This document shows positions 1-7,098 of a DNA stretch of 64,000 nucleotides, one piece after another. The notes below the pieces were generated by a model. That model was given only the letters and a program-made list of their open reading frames with translations, was not told the DNA's origin and ran no database searches. The position numbers and the translations under genes were made by a program. The DNA comes from Acuticoccus sediminis. Its GTDB lineage: Bacteria > Pseudomonadota > Alphaproteobacteria > Rhizobiales > Amorphaceae. Numbering within the stretch: position 1 is the first letter of the stretch; each line of letters begins with the position of its first letter. The DNA lies in contig NZ_QHHQ01000001.1 of NCBI RefSeq assembly GCF_003258595.1, positions 1,364,001 to 1,428,000 on the forward strand. The letters are read 5' to 3'.

Positions 1-643
1 GACGACCCTCCTCAACTCCGTCTCGCGGCGCATCGAGCCGACGTCGGGCACCGTCACCTACACGATGCGCGACGGCACCCCGCGCGACCTCGCGACGCTG
101 ACGGAGGCCGAGCGGCGGCATCTCGGCCGCACCGACTGGGGCTTCGTCCACCAGAACCCCGCCGACGGGCTGAGGATGAGCGTCTCCGCCGGCGGCAACG
201 TGGGCGAGCGGCTGATGGCGGTCGGCAGGCGTCACTACGGCGATATCCGGCAGGTCGCGGCGGACTGGCTGGAGCGGGTGGAGATCCCGGCCGACCGGAT
301 CGACGACGCGCCGCGGACCTTCTCGGGCGGCATGCGCCAGCGCCTGCAGATCGCGCGCAACCTCGTCACGCATCCGCGCCTCGTCTTCCTCGACGAACCG
401 ACGGGCGGGCTCGACGTCTCGGTGCAGGCGCGGGTCCTCGACGTGATGCGCCGCCTCGTCGCCGACATGGGGCTCTCGGCCATCCTTGTGACGCACGACC
501 TCGCCGTCGCCCGCCTGCTGGCGGACCGGATGATGGTGATGAAGGACGGCCACGTCGTGGAGGAGGGGCTGACCGAGCGCGTGCTGGAGGACCCTCAGCA
601 CCCCTACACCCAGCTCCTCGTCTCCTCGATCCTGGCAGTCTGA
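1..643 (+). CDS. phnK: PhnK, C-P lyase ABC-type ATPase (5' end cut by window)
   Basis: ATP-binding subunit associated with the carbon-phosphorus lyase core complex, which cleaves alkylphosphonates to release phosphate. The reading frame is open from base 2, and the first visible residues (TTLLN) sit just after the Walker A GK, so the start is outside the window. Visible motifs are the ABC signature FSGGMRQR, Walker B LVFLDEPTGGLD and the switch His in VTHDLAVAR. Calling it PhnK rather than a generic DppD/OppD-type ATPase rests on phnL following four bases downstream and on phnM further on; the end HPYTQLLVSSIL fits the family. The missing phnG-J genes would be expected just upstream of the window. 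Confidence 0.93.
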   Translation, partial: TTLLNSVSRRIEPTSGTVTYTMRDGTPRDLATLTEAERRHLGRTDWGFVHQNPADGLRMSVSAGGNVGERLMAVGRRHYGDIRQVAADWLERVEIPADRIDDAPRTFSGGMRQRLQIARNLVTHPRLVFLDEPTGGLDVSVQARVLDVMRRLVADMGLSAILVTHDLAVARLLADRMMVMKDGHVVEEGLTERVLEDPQHPYTQLLVSSILAV

Positions 644-647
644 CGGC

Positions 648-1358
648 ATGACGACGCAACCGACCGGCGGCGCGACGATCCTCGAGGTGGAGGGCCTCGC
701 CAAGACGTTCACCATGCATCTGCGCGGCGGGGTCCGCCTCCCGGTGGTCGCGGACGCCGCCTTCAGCGTGGCGGCGGGCGAGTGCGTCGTGCTGGGCGGC
801 CCGTCCGGGGCCGGCAAGAGCTCGGTCCTCAAGATCGTCGCCGGCACCTACGCGGCCAACCATGGCGCAGTGCGGGTGCGTCACCGGGGCGGGATGGTGG
901 ACACGACGCGCCTCTCCGCGCGCGAGATGGGCGCAGTGCGGCGCGAGACCATCGCCGACGTCACCCAGTTCCTGCGCGCCATCCCCCGCGTTCCGGCGAT
1001 CGACCTCGTGGCCGCGGCCGGCACCGGCGAGACGGCACGCGATGAGGCGGCGCACCTCCTGACGCGGCTCAACCTGCCGGAGCGGCTGTGGTCGCTGCCG
1101 CCGGCGACCTTCTCGGGCGGCGAGAAGCAGCGGGTGAACATCGCCGCCGGCTTCATCCGCCGCACGCCGCTCCTGCTGGTGGACGAGCCGACCGCGAGCC
1201 TCGACCACGCCAACCGCGAGGTCGTCGTCGAACTGATCCGCGAGAAGAAGGCCGCCGGAACCGCCGTTCTCGGCATCTTCCACGACCGCGACGTGCGCGA
1301 TGCGGTATGCGACCGCGTCGTCGACGTCACGAAATTCGCACCGGGGGACGCCGCGTGA
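648..1358 (+). CDS. phnL: PhnL, C-P lyase ABC-type ATPase
   Basis: Second ABC-type ATPase of the C-P lyase system, 236 residues, the usual family length. PhnL works with PhnG-K in converting phosphonates to ribose 1-methylphosphonate triphosphate; it is not thought to drive a transporter. Walker A GPSGAGKSS, signature FSGGEKQRVNIA and Walker B LLLVDEPTASLD are intact. The ATG lies 4 bases after the phnK stop. The last codons overlap the GTG start of the next gene (GTGA), so phnK, phnL and the acetyltransferase should be one translationally coupled operon. Confidence 0.95.
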   Translation: MTTQPTGGATILEVEGLAKTFTMHLRGGVRLPVVADAAFSVAAGECVVLGGPSGAGKSSVLKIVAGTYAANHGAVRVRHRGGMVDTTRLSAREMGAVRRETIADVTQFLRAIPRVPAIDLVAAAGTGETARDEAAHLLTRLNLPERLWSLPPATFSGGEKQRVNIAAGFIRRTPLLLVDEPTASLDHANREVVVELIREKKAAGTAVLGIFHDRDVRDAVCDRVVDVTKFAPGDAA

Positions 1359-1963
1359 AGCTGTCCGAGGCACCGACCATCCACCCCACCGCGACGGTGA
1401 CCGACACGACCATGGGGCGCTGGACCGATGTCGGCGCCTACACCGAGATCAGCGCGTCGAGCTTCGGCGACTACAGCTACATCGTCGACGACGGGCAGGT
1501 GCTGTTCTCGACGGTGAAGAAGTTCGCGTCGATCGCCTCGCACGTGCGGCTCAACCCCTCGAATCACCCGATCGAGCGGGCCGCCGCGCATCATTTCACC
1601 TACCGCTGCGCCGACTATTTCGAGGACGCCGAGCACGATACCGGCATCTTCGAGTGGCGCCGTGCCGATACCGTCACCATCGGCAACGACGTGTGGATCG
1701 GGCATGCGGCGACGGTGATGCCGGGCGTCACGGTGGGTGACGGGGCGGTCATCGGCTCGGGCGCGGTGGTGACGCGGGACGTCGCCCCGTACACGATCGT
1801 CACCGGCATCCCGGCGCGACCGTTGCGGCCGCGCTTCCCGGCCCGCATCGGCGAGCGGCTGATGGCGCTCGGCTGGTGGGACTGGAGCCATGAGCGCCTG
1901 CGCACCGCGCTCCCCGATTTCCAGGCGCTGCCGGTGGAGACCTTCCTCGAGAAGTACGAGTAG
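1355..1963 (+). CDS. Phosphonate-locus hexapeptide-repeat acetyltransferase
   Basis: Left-handed beta-helix acyltransferase of the kind found in C-P lyase operons (the 'transferase hexapeptide repeat, phosphonate metabolism' family). The GTG start overlaps the phnL stop as GTGA and gives 202 residues, typical for the family; starts further upstream would lie inside phnL. Hexapeptide turns are visible as VTIGNDVWIGHAA, VTVGDGAVIGSGA and the closing YTIVTGIPARPL. A role in acetylating phosphonates or C-P lyase intermediates is inferred from location; the substrate cannot be read from the sequence. It is followed by the reversed opsin-like gene after only 8 bases. Confidence 0.9.
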   Translation: MKLSEAPTIHPTATVTDTTMGRWTDVGAYTEISASSFGDYSYIVDDGQVLFSTVKKFASIASHVRLNPSNHPIERAAAHHFTYRCADYFEDAEHDTGIFEWRRADTVTIGNDVWIGHAATVMPGVTVGDGAVIGSGAVVTRDVAPYTIVTGIPARPLRPRFPARIGERLMALGWWDWSHERLRTALPDFQALPVETFLEKYE

Positions 1964-1971
1964 AACGCCGC

Positions 1972-3039
1972 TCAGGGGTCCTTCTTCTTCAGCCGCGCGG
2001 CGTTGGCGATCACGAGGAGCGCGCCGGCCACGAAGGCGATGGGGACGGCGTCGTCCTTGGTGAGCCGGCCAAACGGCGTGGCGGCGAGCTGGTCGGCGAT
2101 GCTGCGCCGTGGCGGGCGCTTGCGGCGCGGCGGCGGCGGGACGGGCTCCGGGGCTGGACGCCGCCGGTCGAGCCGGTCGAACGCGCGGCGCAGCACCGGC
2201 CGCGCGCCGGCGACGGCCCGCCGTGTCCGCGCCTCGCCTTGCCGCACGGCACCGCGCGTCGCCTCCGTACCCCGGTCGACGAGGTCGAGGAGGCGCTCGC
2301 GGGCCAGCGCTCGCGCCGACAGCGGGACCTTGCGCAGCGCCGGGGCGCCCTGCGCCGTCTCGGCGCTCGCCTCCAGCGCGACCAACCGCTCGTCCTCGAG
2401 GACCATCACAAGGCTGAACGCGGCCAGGGCGGTAAGGTCGACGAGACCGTAGAGCCCTTGCTGCGCGGCCGGTCCGATGAGGTCGAGGAGGCTCGGGCCG
2501 AGGAGGGCGATCGCCGGCCACATCGTCCACAGCACCATCAGGGTCCGCGCGTGCCGCTCGTAGACGTCGAGGCGCGCGGGGCCGCTCGCGACCGCGGCCT
2601 CGCGCACCGGGCCGCGCAGCAGCGCGAACATCAGCCCCATCGTGAGCAGCGAGACGACGAACCAGATCCACGCCGCCGCACCTGTCTGCCCGACCGCGAC
2701 GGCGCGCGTCGCCACCATCGCGACGTCGAGGAAGACGACCGTGAGCGCCGTCGGCAGCAGCGCCTGACCCGCCGGGACCGCGGTCGCGAGCAGGGACGCG
2801 GCGAGCACCGGCGTCGTGAGGAGCCAGATGACGTGGTGCGTGTCGACGGGGTGCGGGCCGACGTAGACCGCCGCGCCGCGCGCCATCACCACGTAGTAGA
2901 GCGCGGCCATCAGCGCAGCGCCGCCGTGAAGCGCCGTGCGGGCCGCCTGACGCGGCGTCGCGAAGCCGCCGAGGGCGAGGATCGCGACCGCGCCGATGGC
3001 GAGGCCGGCGGCGACGACCCATTCGATGGCGGCGCTCAT
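1972..3039 (-). CDS. Type 1 opsin-like seven-helix protein lacking the retinal lysine
   Basis: 355 residues. Seven hydrophobic helices fill residues 5-213, followed by a basic, Pro/Arg-rich segment (about 214-330) and an eighth hydrophobic segment (about 331-349) before KKKDP. Helices C, F and G can be aligned by eye to bacteriorhodopsin. IWLLTTP (71-77) matches DWLFTTP, so Asp85 becomes Ile71, Arg82 His68 and Asp96 Ser82. VLWTMWP (169-175) matches VLWSAYP. VDLTALAAF (200-208) matches LDVSAKVGF, so Asp212 is kept as Asp201 but the retinal lysine (Lys216) is Leu205, codon CTG. LDVAM (104-108) fits helix D around Asp115. It should not form a retinal Schiff base or pump protons by the known mechanism. 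The gene is reversed inside the phn locus. Function unknown; homology is my own alignment, not a search. Confidence 0.75.
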   Translation of the reverse strand: MSAAIEWVVAAGLAIGAVAILALGGFATPRQAARTALHGGAALMAALYYVVMARGAAVYVGPHPVDTHHVIWLLTTPVLAASLLATAVPAGQALLPTALTVVFLDVAMVATRAVAVGQTGAAAWIWFVVSLLTMGLMFALLRGPVREAAVASGPARLDVYERHARTLMVLWTMWPAIALLGPSLLDLIGPAAQQGLYGLVDLTALAAFSLVMVLEDERLVALEASAETAQGAPALRKVPLSARALARERLLDLVDRGTEATRGAVRQGEARTRRAVAGARPVLRRAFDRLDRRRPAPEPVPPPPRRKRPPRRSIADQLAATPFGRLTKDDAVPIAFVAGALLVIANAARLKKKDP

Positions 3040-3081
3040 CGCGCGGGTCCGCGGTGGACGGTGCGCCGCAATGTCGACGGA

Positions 3082-3099
3082 CTGTCACAATCATGTGTG
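3082..3099 (+). promoter_or_regulatory. Candidate Pho-type or palindromic operator ahead of DUF1045-phnM
   Basis: CTGTCACAATCATGTGTG contains one full Pho-box half (CTGTCAC) and a weak second half 11 bases on, about 120 bases before the DUF1045 start. The same bases contain a perfect inverted repeat, TCACA-6-TGTGA (3085-3100), which could instead be a repressor operator serving both divergent genes. A second small palindrome (TTGC-GTA-GCAA) lies around 3161-3171. The site sits where the downstream phn genes need their own promoter, because the reversed gene separates them from phnL. Confidence 0.3.
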
Positions 3100-3218
3100 A
3101 GATGACGGCTGCGGTGGTCTATCCCAGGCATCGCTCGCTCCCACACGCTCCGTATTGTTTGTTGCGTAGCAAACGAAGGTGCCCGGGATTGGTTCGCCTC
3201 ACAGCCGACGAAGGTTCG

Positions 3219-3893
3219 ATGCGTTACGCCGTCTATCTGACCCCGCCCGACGGGGCGCCCCTTGCCGAAGCCGCCGCCACGTGGCTCGGCCGGTCGCCGT
3301 TCCCGGGCCCGGCCGGGCCCGCCGCCGCGCCCGCCTTGGCGCTTCCCGAGGTGCCGGCGCGCTACGGCTTCCACGCCACCATGCGCGCCCCGTTCGTTCT
3401 GGCGGAAGGGCGCACCGAGGCCGACCTTCTCGCCGCCTTCGAGGCGTTCGCGGCGCAGCGCTCCGTCCTGCACCCTGTGCTCGCCATCGCGCCCCTGTCG
3501 CGCTTCGTCGCGTTCCGGTCCGACGATCCGGCGCTGAGCCGCGCGGCGCAGGAGACGGTGGAGGCGTTCGAGCCGCTGCGGGCGCCGCTGACCGAAGCGG
3601 ACCGCGCCCGGCGCAGCCCCGACAAGCTCACCAGCCGCGAACTGGATCTTCTCGAGCGCTGGGGATACCCCTACGTCATGGAACGTTTCGTGTTTCACAT
3701 GACCCTGTCCGGACCGGTGGGGGAGAGTTTAGACACCGTCACCGCCGCCGCCAAATCCCATTTCGGTGCGCTCGACGGTGCGCCTCACCCCCTCATTCTC
3801 GCCATCTATCGGGAGGATGAGCCGGGCGGCCCCTTCCATGTGATCGCGACGCAGAACGCCGCCGCCTCCTCCAACTCGGACCGATCCCGTTGA
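3219..3893 (+). CDS. DUF1045 phosphonate-operon 2H phosphoesterase-like protein
   Basis: Member of the DUF1045 family found in C-P lyase operons, here 224 residues. It carries the two His-x-Thr motifs of the 2H phosphoesterase superfamily: GFHATM near residue 50 and FHMTLSG near residue 163. The frame is open further upstream, but the ATG at 3219 begins the typical MRYAVYLTPP sequence. By analogy with the superfamily it may act on a cyclic ribose-phosphate intermediate of phosphonate breakdown; this is inference. The stop overlaps the TTG start of phnM (TTGA), so the two are coupled. Confidence 0.9.
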   Translation: MRYAVYLTPPDGAPLAEAAATWLGRSPFPGPAGPAAAPALALPEVPARYGFHATMRAPFVLAEGRTEADLLAAFEAFAAQRSVLHPVLAIAPLSRFVAFRSDDPALSRAAQETVEAFEPLRAPLTEADRARRSPDKLTSRELDLLERWGYPYVMERFVFHMTLSGPVGESLDTVTAAAKSHFGALDGAPHPLILAIYREDEPGGPFHVIATQNAAASSNSDRSR

Positions 3894-5020
3894 CCACGCT
3901 GACCAATGCCACTCTCGTCCTCCCCGATGAGGTGATCCGCGGCCACATCGTGCTCGAGGACGGGCGCATCGCCGCCATCGGCGAGGGCGACGCGCGCGGC
4001 GAGGACATTGAGGGCGACATCATCGTCCCCGGCCTGATCGAGCTGCACACCGACCACCTGGAGACCCACGTCGCGCCGCGCCCGAAGGTGCGCTGGAACG
4101 TGACGGCGGCGATCCAGGCGCACGACGCGCAGATCGCGGCATCCGGCATCACCACGGTGCTCGACGCGCTGCGGGTGGGCCTCGACGCGGACGCCGACAT
4201 CTCCTCGCAGGATTCGCGGAACTTCGCGGACGCGATCACCAGCGCCCAGAACGAGGGGCGGCTGAGGGCCGAGCATCACTTCCACCTCCGTTGCGAGGTG
4301 TCGGACGAGATGGCCGTCTCGGGCTTCGAGCTCTTCGACGACGTGCCCGAGGTGCGTCTCATCTCGCTGATGGACCACACGCCCGGCCAGCGGCAGTTCC
4401 GCTCGCTGGAGGCCTACCGGATCTACTTCCAGGGCAAGAGCGGCATGTCGGATCCCGAGTTCGAGCTGTTCCAGGCCGAGCGTCGGGCGCGGGCGGCGAT
4501 CTGGTCGGACAAGAACCGCAAGGCGCTGGCGGAGCGGGCCAGGGGACGCGGTGTCATCATCGCGAGCCACGACGACGCGACCACGGAGCATGTCGACGAG
4601 GCGATCCGCGACGGCGTGACGCTCGCCGAGTTCCCGACCACGGTGGAGGCAGCGGCGGCGTCGCGCGAGGCGGGGATGCAGATCCTGATGGGCGGTCCGA
4701 ACCTCGTTCGCGGCGGCTCCCACTCCGGCAACGTTTCGGCCGGGGAACTGGCGGACAAGGGGATGCTGGACATCCTGTCGTCGGACTACGTGCCGTTCTC
4801 GATGCTGCAGTCGGCGTTCGTCCTGTCGGACCGCGAGGGGTGGAGCCTGCCGGCGGCCGTCGCGACGGTGACGGCCAATCCGGCGCGCGCGCTGGACATG
4901 CCCGACCGCGGCACCCTCGTTGAGGGGCTCCGCGGCGATATCGTGCGGGTGCGCCGCACCGGCGCGGGCGAGATCCCGGTCGTGCGGAGCGTCTGGCGCG
5001 CGGGCGACCGCGTCCTCTAG
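3890..5020 (+). CDS. phnM: PhnM, ribose 1-methylphosphonate 5-triphosphate diphosphatase
   Basis: Amidohydrolase-fold enzyme that removes pyrophosphate from alpha-D-ribose 1-methylphosphonate 5-triphosphate before C-P bond cleavage. 376 residues, normal for PhnM. The start is TTG, overlapping the DUF1045 stop. Metal-site motifs are visible: LIELHTDHLETH near residue 50, HFHLRCE near 130 and ASHDDATTEH near 225. The C-terminal SDYVPFSMLQSAF and the ATVTANPARALDMPDRG run are typical. No phnN lies next to it, unlike many phn operons. Confidence 0.95.
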   Translation: MTTLTNATLVLPDEVIRGHIVLEDGRIAAIGEGDARGEDIEGDIIVPGLIELHTDHLETHVAPRPKVRWNVTAAIQAHDAQIAASGITTVLDALRVGLDADADISSQDSRNFADAITSAQNEGRLRAEHHFHLRCEVSDEMAVSGFELFDDVPEVRLISLMDHTPGQRQFRSLEAYRIYFQGKSGMSDPEFELFQAERRARAAIWSDKNRKALAERARGRGVIIASHDDATTEHVDEAIRDGVTLAEFPTTVEAAAASREAGMQILMGGPNLVRGGSHSGNVSAGELADKGMLDILSSDYVPFSMLQSAFVLSDREGWSLPAAVATVTANPARALDMPDRGTLVEGLRGDIVRVRRTGAGEIPVVRSVWRAGDRVL

Positions 5021-5058: not shown

Positions 5059-7098
5059 TCAGGCGGCGCGGACCTCGGTGAGGAAGCTGGCGAACACGTC
5101 GCGGAGCTGGGTGGTGACGTCGCTCATCCGCGTTGCGGTATGCTGCACGTCGTGAGCGTCCGTCTGCGTCTTCGCCGCCGCGTCCACCACGCCGCTGACC
5201 GAGGCCGAGGCGGTCTCCGACCCCTTCGACGCGGCGTTGACGCCAGCGCCGATATCGCGTGTCGCCGCGCTCTGCTGCGCCATCACCGAGGAGATGCCGA
5301 GCGCGGATGAGCGCAGCGAGTCGAACCGCCCCAGGATGTCGTCGATGCCCTGAACGGCAGAGCGGGTGCCCTTCTGGATGTCGTCGATCTGCTTGGCGAT
5401 CTCGTTCGTCGCCGCAGCTGTCTGGTTGGCGAGGGCCTTCACCTCGTGCGCCACCACCGCGAAGCCGCGGCCCGCGGGACCGGCCCGCTCGGCCTCGATC
5501 GTCGCGTTGAGGGCGAGGAGGTTCGTCTGCTCTGCGATGTCGGCGATCATGGTCGCGACGTTGTTGATCGCCTCGGCCGCGCTTGCGAGGCCGGTGACCC
5601 GCGCCGACGTCTGCGTCACGGCCGTCGCCGCCTCGTCGGTCGCCTTCTGCGATGCGTTCACCTTGCTGGAGATCTCGTCGAACGAGCTGTGGAGCTGCTC
5701 GATCGCCGCGGCGACGCCCTGGACGGCCCGGGCGGCGGAGTCGGAGGAGGACTTCGCCTCGGTCGAGCCGCGGGCGGTGTGGTCGGCCGTCAGGGCGAGG
5801 TGTTCGGCGACCGACGCGAGGGCGTGGCTCATGTCGTCGAGGTCGGCGAGCGTGCGCTCCGCCCGCGACTGGAACTCGTTGATCGCCTCGTTGACGCGCC
5901 TTGCCCGCGCCTCGTCCTGGAGGTGGCGGTCGTGCTCCTTTCGGACGAGCGCCTTCCGCTCGTCCTCGCTGCGGCGCATGACGTCGAGCGCGCGGCCGAT
6001 GTCGCCGATCTCGTCGGTGCGGTTGGCCTCCTCGATGACGATGTCGGTCACGCCCTCGCTGACCATGCCGATGTGCGTGACGATTCGCCGGATCGGCCGC
6101 TTCAGCCGGTTAACGTTCAGGGCCGACACCAGCACGCAGACGACCGCCATGATGCCGTTGCCGGCGAGGACGAGGAGGAACTCCAGCCGTGCCGCGGCCG
6201 TGTGGTGCTGCGCCGAGGTGAGGAGGCTGCGGGCGGCGGCGTCCTCTACGTCCTTGAGGTCGTTGATGCGCGCGGTGGCCGCTGCGAACCATTGGGGTCC
6301 CGTGACACCGTCGAGGCTGCCCGAGGTGACGCTGGCGTGGGCGAGGTCGCGCAGGGCGTCGACGCGGTCCGAGGCCGGGCTGTCGAGCGCGTCGCGGAGG
6401 AGATCGAGCTCGGAGGGGCTCGCCTGCGTGTCGGCGAGGTCGATCAGGGCGTGCTGGGCGGCGCCGAGCTGGACGAACCGGCGGTAGAGGTCGGTCGAGA
6501 AGTAGCCCATGCCGAAGCCAGCGGCGCCGACTGCCCGCTCCAGCCCCGCCTTCTCCTTCGCGTCGAGGATGGCGACGTAGAAGTTGGCGGACCGGGCGGT
6601 GGCGAGGTCGTCCACGCCGTATGCGATGAGGCTGGTGGTGGCGAGGAGCTGGTCGATGATCCCGGTGTAGGCCTTCGCCATCTCGGGCGCCGTCAGGGTG
6701 AGGTCGCCGACCGCCTCGCGGGTGCGGGGGAGCGCCTGCAGCGCGGCCATGACGTTGCCCGTCTGCTCGGCCATCGTGCCGGAGTGCGTCTCCCTGGCCA
6801 TGGCGCCAGCGAGGTTCTGCTGCGCGGTGTCCGTCATCCGCTGCTGGTCGCCGATGAGCTTGCGGAACTCCTGGCCGCCGCCGGAACCGATGAAGCCCGC
6901 CGAAAGGCCGCGTTCCTTCTGGAGCTCGTGCGCGAGCGTGCCGAGAAGCGGTGCGAACTCGAGGCGCGCCTCGGCCTCCGCCGCCTCGTGCCACTTGCTG
7001 CTTTGTTCGCTCAGGATCCAGCCGCACACGGCCGTGAGGCCGACGAGAGGCACCATCGCGACGAGAAGAATCCGTGTGCCGAGCCGCATATTATGCAC
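5059..7098 (-). CDS. Methyl-accepting chemotaxis protein with NIT sensor domain
   Basis: 679-residue membrane chemoreceptor. Order: first membrane helix (about 8-29), periplasmic nitrate/nitrite-type (NIT) sensor domain with the hallmark [16 protein letters not shown] near residues 58-74, second membrane helix (about 305-328), HAMP (about 329-382) and an MCP signalling domain whose hairpin tip [18 protein letters not shown] lies around 520. The tip reads AGPAGRGF where AGEAGRGF is more usual. A NIT domain suggests response to nitrate or nitrite, but NIT domains also occur in receptors of unknown ligand. No che genes are nearby. Convergent with phnM. Confidence 0.92.

Follow-up and report, generated by a model that had tools for sequence, protein, structure and literature searches.

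A Lysine-Less Type-1 Opsin Homologue Encoded beside Phosphonate Genes in Acuticoccus

Results

An opsin gene at a phosphonate locus

The window, a stretch of 64,000 nucleotides from Acuticoccus sediminis (contig NZ_QHHQ01000001.1, positions 1,364,001 to 1,428,000), carries near its start an uninterrupted reverse-strand reading frame of 355 codons that encodes an opsin-like protein of 355 residues (Table 1). Gene order in this genome (G000) runs phnG-H-I-J, a GNAT-like gene, phnK-L, an LbH acetyltransferase gene, the opsin gene on the opposite strand, and DUF1045-phnM. The initial annotation had placed the opsin within C-P lyase genes, and that setting is borne out by Pfam, which identifies PhnG, PhnI, PhnJ and DUF1045. 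We placed phnH, phnK, phnL and phnM by gene order together with tblastn, and these four names are what we presume the genes to be from their order; likewise, the amidohydrolase gene that follows DUF1045 is taken to be phnM from its setting. The opsin gene is transcribed away from DUF1045-phnM and has no operon in common with a phn gene.

Table 1. Features of the opsin locus, in window coordinates.
Feature	Position	Strand	Basis
phnK-type ABC ATPase, cut by the window start	1..643	+	gene order
phnL-type ABC ATPase	648..1358	+	Pfam ABC_tran; phn name from gene order
Hexapeptide (LbH) acetyltransferase, convergent with the opsin gene, ends 8 bp apart	1346..1963	+	Pfam, tblastn
Lysine-less type-1 opsin gene, 355 aa	1972..3039	-	ORF, Pfam, predicted fold
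Candidate eighth membrane segment, C-terminal and hydrophobic, residues 332-350	1990..2046	-	hydropathy, alignment
Basic linker, residues 223-331, poorly conserved	2047..2373	-	composition, alignment
LEDERL, cytoplasmic end of helix G, residues 214-219; LEDxxL in 5 of 6 homologues	2383..2400	-	alignment
Seven-helix opsin core, residues 1-216	2392..3039	-	AlphaFold2 model, Foldseek
Model helices, residues 2-23, 29-53, 67-87, 95-117, 120-152, 154-180, 190-231		-	AlphaFold2
Leu205 codon CTG, K216 position	2425..2427	-	sequence, alignment
Helix E/F cytoplasmic loop region, residues 142-166, reads SGPARLDVYERHA	2542..2616	-	alignment
Helix C, residues 67-87; His68, Ile71, Trp72 and Ser82 at the R82, D85, W86 and D96 positions	2779..2841	-	alignment
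Operator-like site GTCACA-N6-TGTGAG between the opsin and DUF1045 starts	3084..3101	.	comparison with relatives
DUF1045 gene, divergent from the opsin gene	3219..3893	+	Pfam
phnM-type amidohydrolase	3890..5020	+	Pfam Amidohydro_3
NIT-HAMP-MCP chemotaxis receptor, on the strand of the opsin gene	5059..7098	-	Pfam

Sites similar to the operator-like sequence between the two divergent genes occur in three other opsin-bearing genomes (G003, A. yangtzensis and A. mangrovi) and in the opsin-less genome G004, with a weaker one in G005, and none is evident in G006 and G001. Match counts for the site are not above those in shuffled sequence in either locus L017 or the window, so only its recurrence in relatives speaks for it, and since it is also present in the opsin-less G004 it may serve DUF1045-phnM first. 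A search allowing as many as two mismatches found no second copy before phnG. With its arms six bases apart, the inverted repeat is to our eye closer in form to a dyad than to the direct repeats of PhoB. A scan of positions 1900-3300 for sigma-70 promoters and terminators gave none.

The protein is a type-1 opsin homologue without the retinal lysine

The initial annotation had read the frame as an opsin-like seven-helix protein, to be checked by profile search and by structural superposition, and both lines of evidence agree with that reading. Bac_rhodopsin (PF01036) is the sole Pfam family matched, over residues 5-213 (E 1.8e-18; 67.3 bits against a cut-off of 24.6), with no competing family at E up to 10, and a search of NCBIfam returned no family. 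A phmmer search of PDB sequences matched xenorhodopsin 7zmy at 3.9e-14. We computed an AlphaFold2 model from four input sequences, namely the window opsin, its A. yangtzensis and A. mangrovi homologues and one Methylobacterium-like rhodopsin from a viral-contig record. Mean pLDDT over the whole protein is 75.6, the core helices being well predicted and the C-terminal part less certain. When this model was compared with the PDB using Foldseek, all of the best 50 matches listed were type-1 rhodopsins, with TMt of 0.79-0.91 in the ten best; the top match was the glycilhalorhodopsin of Salinarimonas soli (8xx8; E 1.9e-10, TMt 0.79), and xenorhodopsin gave TMt of 0.88-0.91. One of the four inputs is a canonical rhodopsin that could steer the predicted fold, and the sequence matches stand independently of it. 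Modelling from the window protein alone gave a poor result (pLDDT 53.5), which was left out of the fold comparison.

Using position numbers that we take to be those of bacteriorhodopsin, the alignment places His68 at R82, Ile71 at D85, Ser82 at D96, Asp201 at D212 and Leu205 at K216, the position of the retinal Schiff-base lysine. Every one of these assignments had been made in the initial annotation, and all are right. The DLTA-L of the window protein aligns with the DLTA-K of a Methylobacterium rhodopsin whose gene adjoins a Brp/Blh gene, and the pocket residues Trp72, Trp171, Pro175 and Asp201 are retained. On these sequence comparisons we regard the protein as a type-1 opsin homologue without the lysine, that is, an Rh-noK in the broad sense. 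With leucine at position 205, it almost certainly carries no covalently bound retinal.

The basic tail and additional C-terminal segment that had been noted initially are likewise present, both here and in five relatives. The linker of the window protein has 26 K+R and 13 D+E over 109 residues; among the six homologues it is 76-117 residues long and shows little conservation. The hydrophobic segment that follows (mean hydropathy 1.93 over 19 residues in the window protein) occurs in all six, with mean hydropathies of 1.55-1.93 and three or four basic residues after it. Because basic residues flank the segment on both sides, it is only a candidate membrane crossing.

Homologues in Acuticoccus and beyond

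A genome search with the window opsin gave matches in five of the eight Acuticoccus genomes, its own included, and a sixth, very divergent copy (G006) was recovered at the same locus by tblastn and found again with a profile to which its own sequence had been added. The named carriers are Acuticoccus yangtzensis JL1095 (G007) and A. mangrovi B2012 (G002). Homologues in four sister species are 37-52% identical to the window protein over its full length and occupy the same place, and that of the fifth species is 26% identical. None has an internal stop, the frames being open over 321-363 codons in six species, and GC3 of the gene is 0.79-0.94 in the five genomes for which it was computed. Stop-free homologues at the same place in sister species make it apparent that the observation is more than chance. 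Four of the homologues (G002, G003, G005 and G007) score above the PF01036 cut-off; the G006 protein on its own has no match to that profile. By Pfam and tblastn, the opsin is absent from G001 and G004, in both of which the DUF1045-phnM locus is intact. A candidate tail-only remnant in G001 (L032 5445-5888) did not score above other frames of that locus with a profile of the six tails and was rejected.

The initial annotation asked whether orthologues keep Leu205, and the answer is divided: the lysine is missing from all six homologues, whereas leucine itself is not conserved, the residues being L, F, F, R, R and C, the sixth in a very divergent protein. In 28 of 28 comparison rhodopsins, counted after removal of near-duplicate rows (L013, L038, L039, L042, L055 and L060), the position is lysine; 26 of these 28 were also among the 32 rows of an earlier alignment, all of which bear lysine. 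D212 and W182 are each retained in five of the six homologues. The D85 position reads I, V, L, A, D and D, the last being unsure along with the helix C alignment of the G006 protein, and the G122 position reads R, R, L, F, G and A, a larger residue in four of six. The A. mangrovi homologue (L006 1243-2205, reverse strand) has arginine and aspartate at R82 and D85 and arginine in place of the retinal lysine, so charge was lost there by another way than in the window protein.

We also searched more widely. A profile search of 297 genomes of the order, a sample from a larger group, returned the six Acuticoccus proteins and four weak matches in other genera, one with the lysine and three lysine-less but proteorhodopsin-like (DFLNR). 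The latter three (L074, L076 and L077, from G587, G015 and G091, all other Hyphomicrobiales genera) have glycine at the D85 position (HYxGW) and form a further group of lysine-less proteins within the order; the tree described below, which contains two of them, separates these from the Acuticoccus proteins. A smaller search of 150 genomes of the order also found canonical rhodopsins (DFVNK) in G062 and G098 and, in G118, a stretch scoring 20.5 bits that contains a stop. At class level, 385 genomes were searched and loci were taken from the best 30 of 39 matches, a choice by score that favours canonical forms. Genome contigs scanned with the window protein alone as the query gave no match. Viral contigs gave none with a family alignment or a proteorhodopsin as the query and one Methylobacterium-like rhodopsin with a third query, and tblastn against plasmids gave three distant canonical rhodopsins.

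Retinal supply

The Acuticoccus genomes each have one Bac_rhodopsin match or none (one in A. sediminis), so that a second such gene was found in none of the eight. We searched for a retinal route through the Brp/Blh family (PF15461) alone, which gave no match in the opsin-bearing genomes G000, G002, G003, G005 and G007; as positive controls, two proteorhodopsin genomes gave 185 bits. The plasmid rhodopsins of Methylobacterium and Pantoea adjoin Brp/Blh genes. The window opsin is very probably independent of light.

Conservation of the phosphonate neighbourhood

A survey of the phn neighbourhood in relatives, as proposed initially, showed part of it to be constant and part not. The opsin gene, DUF1045 and phnM lie together in all six opsin-bearing genomes, whereas the phnG-L core adjoins the opsin in only four of them and was not found in the stretches around the opsin locus in G005 and G006. 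For G001, G004 and G006, the sequence examined extends only some 1 to 4 kb beyond phnM, so that absences noted in these genomes carry little weight. DUF1045 and phnM are the sole neighbours present at all six opsin loci. In the opsin-less G004, DUF1045 starts about 150 bp after the LbH gene.

Beyond phnM, the NIT-HAMP-MCP gene is present in three of the six opsin-bearing genomes (G000, G003 and G007), where it is two genes from the opsin rather than adjacent to it. In G005, some 3 kb beyond phnM, there is a gene for a different kind of MCP, one with an sCache sensor. In the same genome, genes for an NMT1-type binding protein and an ABC permease follow the opsin gene on its strand (L020 8512-11526); an NMT1-type binding protein is also encoded on the opsin strand in G006 (L034 10220-13757), and a homologue of it near phn genes in G002 and G004. 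The LbH acetyltransferase of A. yangtzensis (L019 10185-10786) gives a match split into two adjoining parts, suggesting a frameshift or a sequencing error. An acetyltransferase-like gene, which we take to be of the GNAT type, lies between phnJ and phnK in A. sediminis (L017 8334-8870) and A. mangrovi (L021 7320-7802), and one of the same type adjoins DUF1045 in G001 (L032 5931-6416); none was found in the locus stretches of the other five Acuticoccus genomes. There is no flotillin among those of the opsin neighbours that were given to Pfam.

Constraint lies on the cytoplasmic side

In the comparison rhodopsins, mean pairwise identity is 0.82 at 20 pocket positions and 0.45 over the rest of the core. 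The corresponding values for the six homologues are 0.34 and 0.38. With the halves of the core defined by a topology assumed from bacteriorhodopsin and the model, identity among the six homologues is 0.442 in the cytoplasmic half and 0.317 in the extracellular half, while the comparison rhodopsins lean the opposite way (0.456 and 0.518, respectively). The difference in the homologues was reached by 6 of 20000 permutations and 4 of 222 circular shifts, and the same test without the G006 protein gave 7 of 20000 and 7 of 222. By hand count, 32 of the 44 positions that are invariant in five homologues fall in the cytoplasmic half. Invariant cytoplasmic motifs include LGGxxTxRQ in the A/B loop, TAxPxG in the C/D loop, PxRxxxYxRHA in the E/F loop and LEDxxL at the end of helix G; the E/F loop region is among the best conserved stretches, reading GHPVRxxLYxRHA in four of five homologues. 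These alignments indicate that constraint has moved from the retinal pocket to the cytoplasmic face, opposite to the pattern in the comparison rhodopsins. Such one-sided conservation could also be the residue of structural constraint combined with decay of the pocket.

Phylogeny and rate of evolution

The six Acuticoccus proteins cluster together (99/100) in a tree built from 26 opsins, although the placement of the G006 protein, on a branch of 2.85, is unsure. The group is nested with glycilhalorhodopsin, DTG, SpaR, Methylobacterium and Pantoea rhodopsins (86/94) and lies apart from two proteorhodopsin-like lysine-less proteins, so that the lysine was lost separately from that pair; published ORP, Rh-noK and FArhodopsin sequences stood outside the tree. 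On a tree of phnM and DUF1045, three of whose five inner forks are open, the distribution of the opsin needs two changes, and losses in G001 and G004 are likely. With two of eight species lacking it at an intact DUF1045-phnM locus, the opsin is dispensable in the genus.

Crude dN/dS values for G000, G003 and G007, obtained with our own NG86 script from three genomes with strong GC3 bias, are 0.51-0.57 for the opsin core and 0.48-0.61 for its tail. Values for the neighbouring genes are 0.15-0.17 for phnM, 0.16-0.31 for phnL, 0.27 for LbH (one pair), 0.29-0.40 for DUF1045 and 0.32-0.50 for NIT-MCP. The opsin is thus the highest of the seven gene parts in these three genomes, at about three times phnM, and by these estimates the gene is evolving fast yet is not free of constraint.

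Discussion

We tentatively favor the view that the window protein is a type-1 opsin that has given up retinal for good and may serve as a light-independent membrane adaptor or receptor acting through its cytoplasmic face, a function that we infer. The loss of retinal has good support: sequences and model show the opsin fold, a replaced lysine and an unconserved pocket in the six homologues, and a retained cytoplasmic face and C-terminal hydrophobic segment. The light-independent sensor or scaffold suggested as a possibility in the initial annotation is compatible with these data. In the reading we favor, the cytoplasmic surface of the protein, made up of the A/B, C/D and E/F loops and the LEDxxL end of helix G, would dock a soluble partner, and the basic tail together with the last hydrophobic segment would tie the docked complex to the membrane. 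The most economical partner would be a product of the adjoining DUF1045-phnM unit, since these are the sole neighbors present in all six genomes. Judging from where constraint lies, action by cytoplasmic docking has about an even chance of being correct. That the docking partner belongs to phosphonate metabolism is drawn from gene order; this is the weakest step and we consider it doubtful.

A conserved cytoplasmic side would also be expected of a ligand receptor whose emptied retinal cavity binds a periplasmic small molecule, such as a phosphonate or another nutrient, and which signals through a transducer. The same proposal has been made for haloarchaeal opsin-related proteins (ORPs), many of which are encoded beside MCP transducers, by Becker et al. 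(2016; PMC4915679), and an MCP gene is found within about 5 kb in four of the six opsin-bearing genomes (NIT-HAMP-MCP in G000, G003 and G007; sCache MCP in G005). However, cavity and extracellular positions are the variable ones in the Acuticoccus proteins, which makes a common ligand unlikely, and both MCPs have sensor domains of their own, of different kinds. Furthermore, G000, G003 and G007 group together in the phnM and DUF1045 tree, so the NIT-MCP association represents one event; no MCP was found in the G002 stretch, and the G006 contig stops about 1 kb past phnM. Because a NIT-MCP transducer would hold in one clade only, we rank this explanation as a rival, the foremost one, and think it rather unlikely.

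The opsin might instead be a relic under weak constraint that is on its way out of the genus. Its dN/dS is the highest of the seven gene parts, it is absent from two of eight species and the G006 branch is very long. On the other hand, the frame is open over 321-363 codons in six species with GC3 of 0.79-0.94, dN/dS is below 1 and the C-terminal segment is retained in all six proteins, and decay seems quite unlikely to us. A carrier or channel, in which the seven-helix bundle passes a small solute (phosphonate, phosphate or a counter-ion) without light, would fit with nearest solved relatives that include ion pumps, namely glycilhalorhodopsin 8xx8, the inward proton pump xenorhodopsin 7zmy and cyanobacterial chloride importers, and with the NMT1-type binding protein and ABC permease encoded after the opsin, on its strand, in G005. 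Yet R82 and D85 occur together in the G002 protein alone, the invariant positions cluster at the cytoplasmic end and do not line a path across the membrane, and the G005 ABC system has its own permease. We consider transport very unlikely. Finally, a photoreceptor that still holds retinal or another chromophore in its pocket without a Schiff base is extremely unlikely, for although Trp72, Trp171, Pro175 and Asp201 are kept in the window protein, the G122 position carries a larger residue in four of six homologues, none of the six retains K216, Brp/Blh gave no match in the five genomes searched, and two haloarchaeal ORPs showed no retinal band (PMC4915679).

Returning to a retinal-free adaptor, a fuller form of the proposal would be that of a genus-level opsin that has abandoned light and been turned into a docking protein at the membrane, serving phosphonate or phosphorus metabolism. 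Its cavity would have been released from selection, its cytoplasmic face and its tail with an eighth membrane segment would be the working surface, and it would be expressed in common with DUF1045-phnM through the divergent promoter. Taken with all of its parts, this fuller form is unlikely.

Such a case is useful because few lysine-less opsins have a known job, though about 600 Rh-noK are counted among 5,558 known microbial rhodopsin genes in PMC7714340. In Acuticoccus, the opsin is the sole rhodopsin found in its genome, Brp/Blh was not found, and the neighbors name a pathway. Two named species carry the gene, and two opsin-less sister genomes are natural controls. The shift of constraint from the pocket to the cytoplasmic face makes the role of a blind opsin experimentally approachable.

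Lysine-less opsins are a known class, as the initial annotation stated, and are represented by the retinal-free haloarchaeal ORPs of Becker et al. (2016; PMC4915679). The annotation also held that, to its knowledge, one with a basic tail, an extra C-terminal membrane segment and a C-P lyase setting was undescribed, and in agreement with this no paper on an opsin in a phosphonate setting, or on Acuticoccus together with either rhodopsin or phosphonate, was among the matches listed in a literature search whose coverage left most subscription journals outside. As described in PMC4915679, the ORPs resemble the Acuticoccus proteins in having a type-1 fold with the lysine replaced (by Arg in group A, by Leu or another hydrophobic residue in group B), a lost pocket and retained signaling-side residues, and they also occur in species without retinal genes. 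They differ in being closest to sensory opsins and mostly encoded beside MCP transducers (15 of 16 in group A and 17 of 32 in group B), whereas the Acuticoccus opsin groups with the DTG/glycilhalorhodopsin type, has a tail with an extra hydrophobic segment and lies in a phn region. A core profile gave 91 bits for the bacterial rhodopsin 8xx8 against 55.5 for sensory rhodopsin II.

Rh-noK (Yamauchi et al. 2019, as cited in PMC10308929 and PMC7714340) is also a bacterial rhodopsin homologue without the lysine. According to those secondary accounts, the betaproteobacterial Rh-noK is related to xanthorhodopsin and stands in tandem with a proteorhodopsin, whereas no other rhodopsin was found in the Acuticoccus genome. 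By the account in PMC10308929, a lysine has been put back into Rh-noK to test its pocket for retinal. In most freshwater FArhodopsins the lysine is replaced by Q, T, L or R, and FArhodopsins are thought to be retinal-less and have a conserved neighborhood; however, they belong to the proteorhodopsin family, are linked to flotillin and, in the single-cell genomes analysed in PMC10308929, always occur with a bona fide proteorhodopsin. The Acuticoccus opsin, by contrast, lies apart from the proteorhodopsins included in a tree composed of sequences other than FArhodopsins, has phn neighbors and has no partner rhodopsin. Glycilhalorhodopsin 8xx8, from Salinarimonas soli of the same order (Hyphomicrobiales), is the best match by both profile and fold, and its helix G reads DLASKAAYG where the A. 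mangrovi opsin has DVASRAAYG. Glycilhalorhodopsin and the DTG and SpaR rhodopsins (7w74 and 8anq) nevertheless keep the retinal lysine, and the solved chains of all three are 238-263 residues long and thus without a tail of the Acuticoccus length. The lysine-less opsins of yeast, fungal ORPs that regulate the plasma-membrane H+-ATPase in the account summarized in PMC7714340, may by analogy offer a model for a role other than light sensing, but they arose by a separate loss of the lysine according to PMC4915679, and they are fungal and without a phosphonate link. The class of the Acuticoccus opsin is therefore a known one; its origin, its tail and its phn setting are what is new here.
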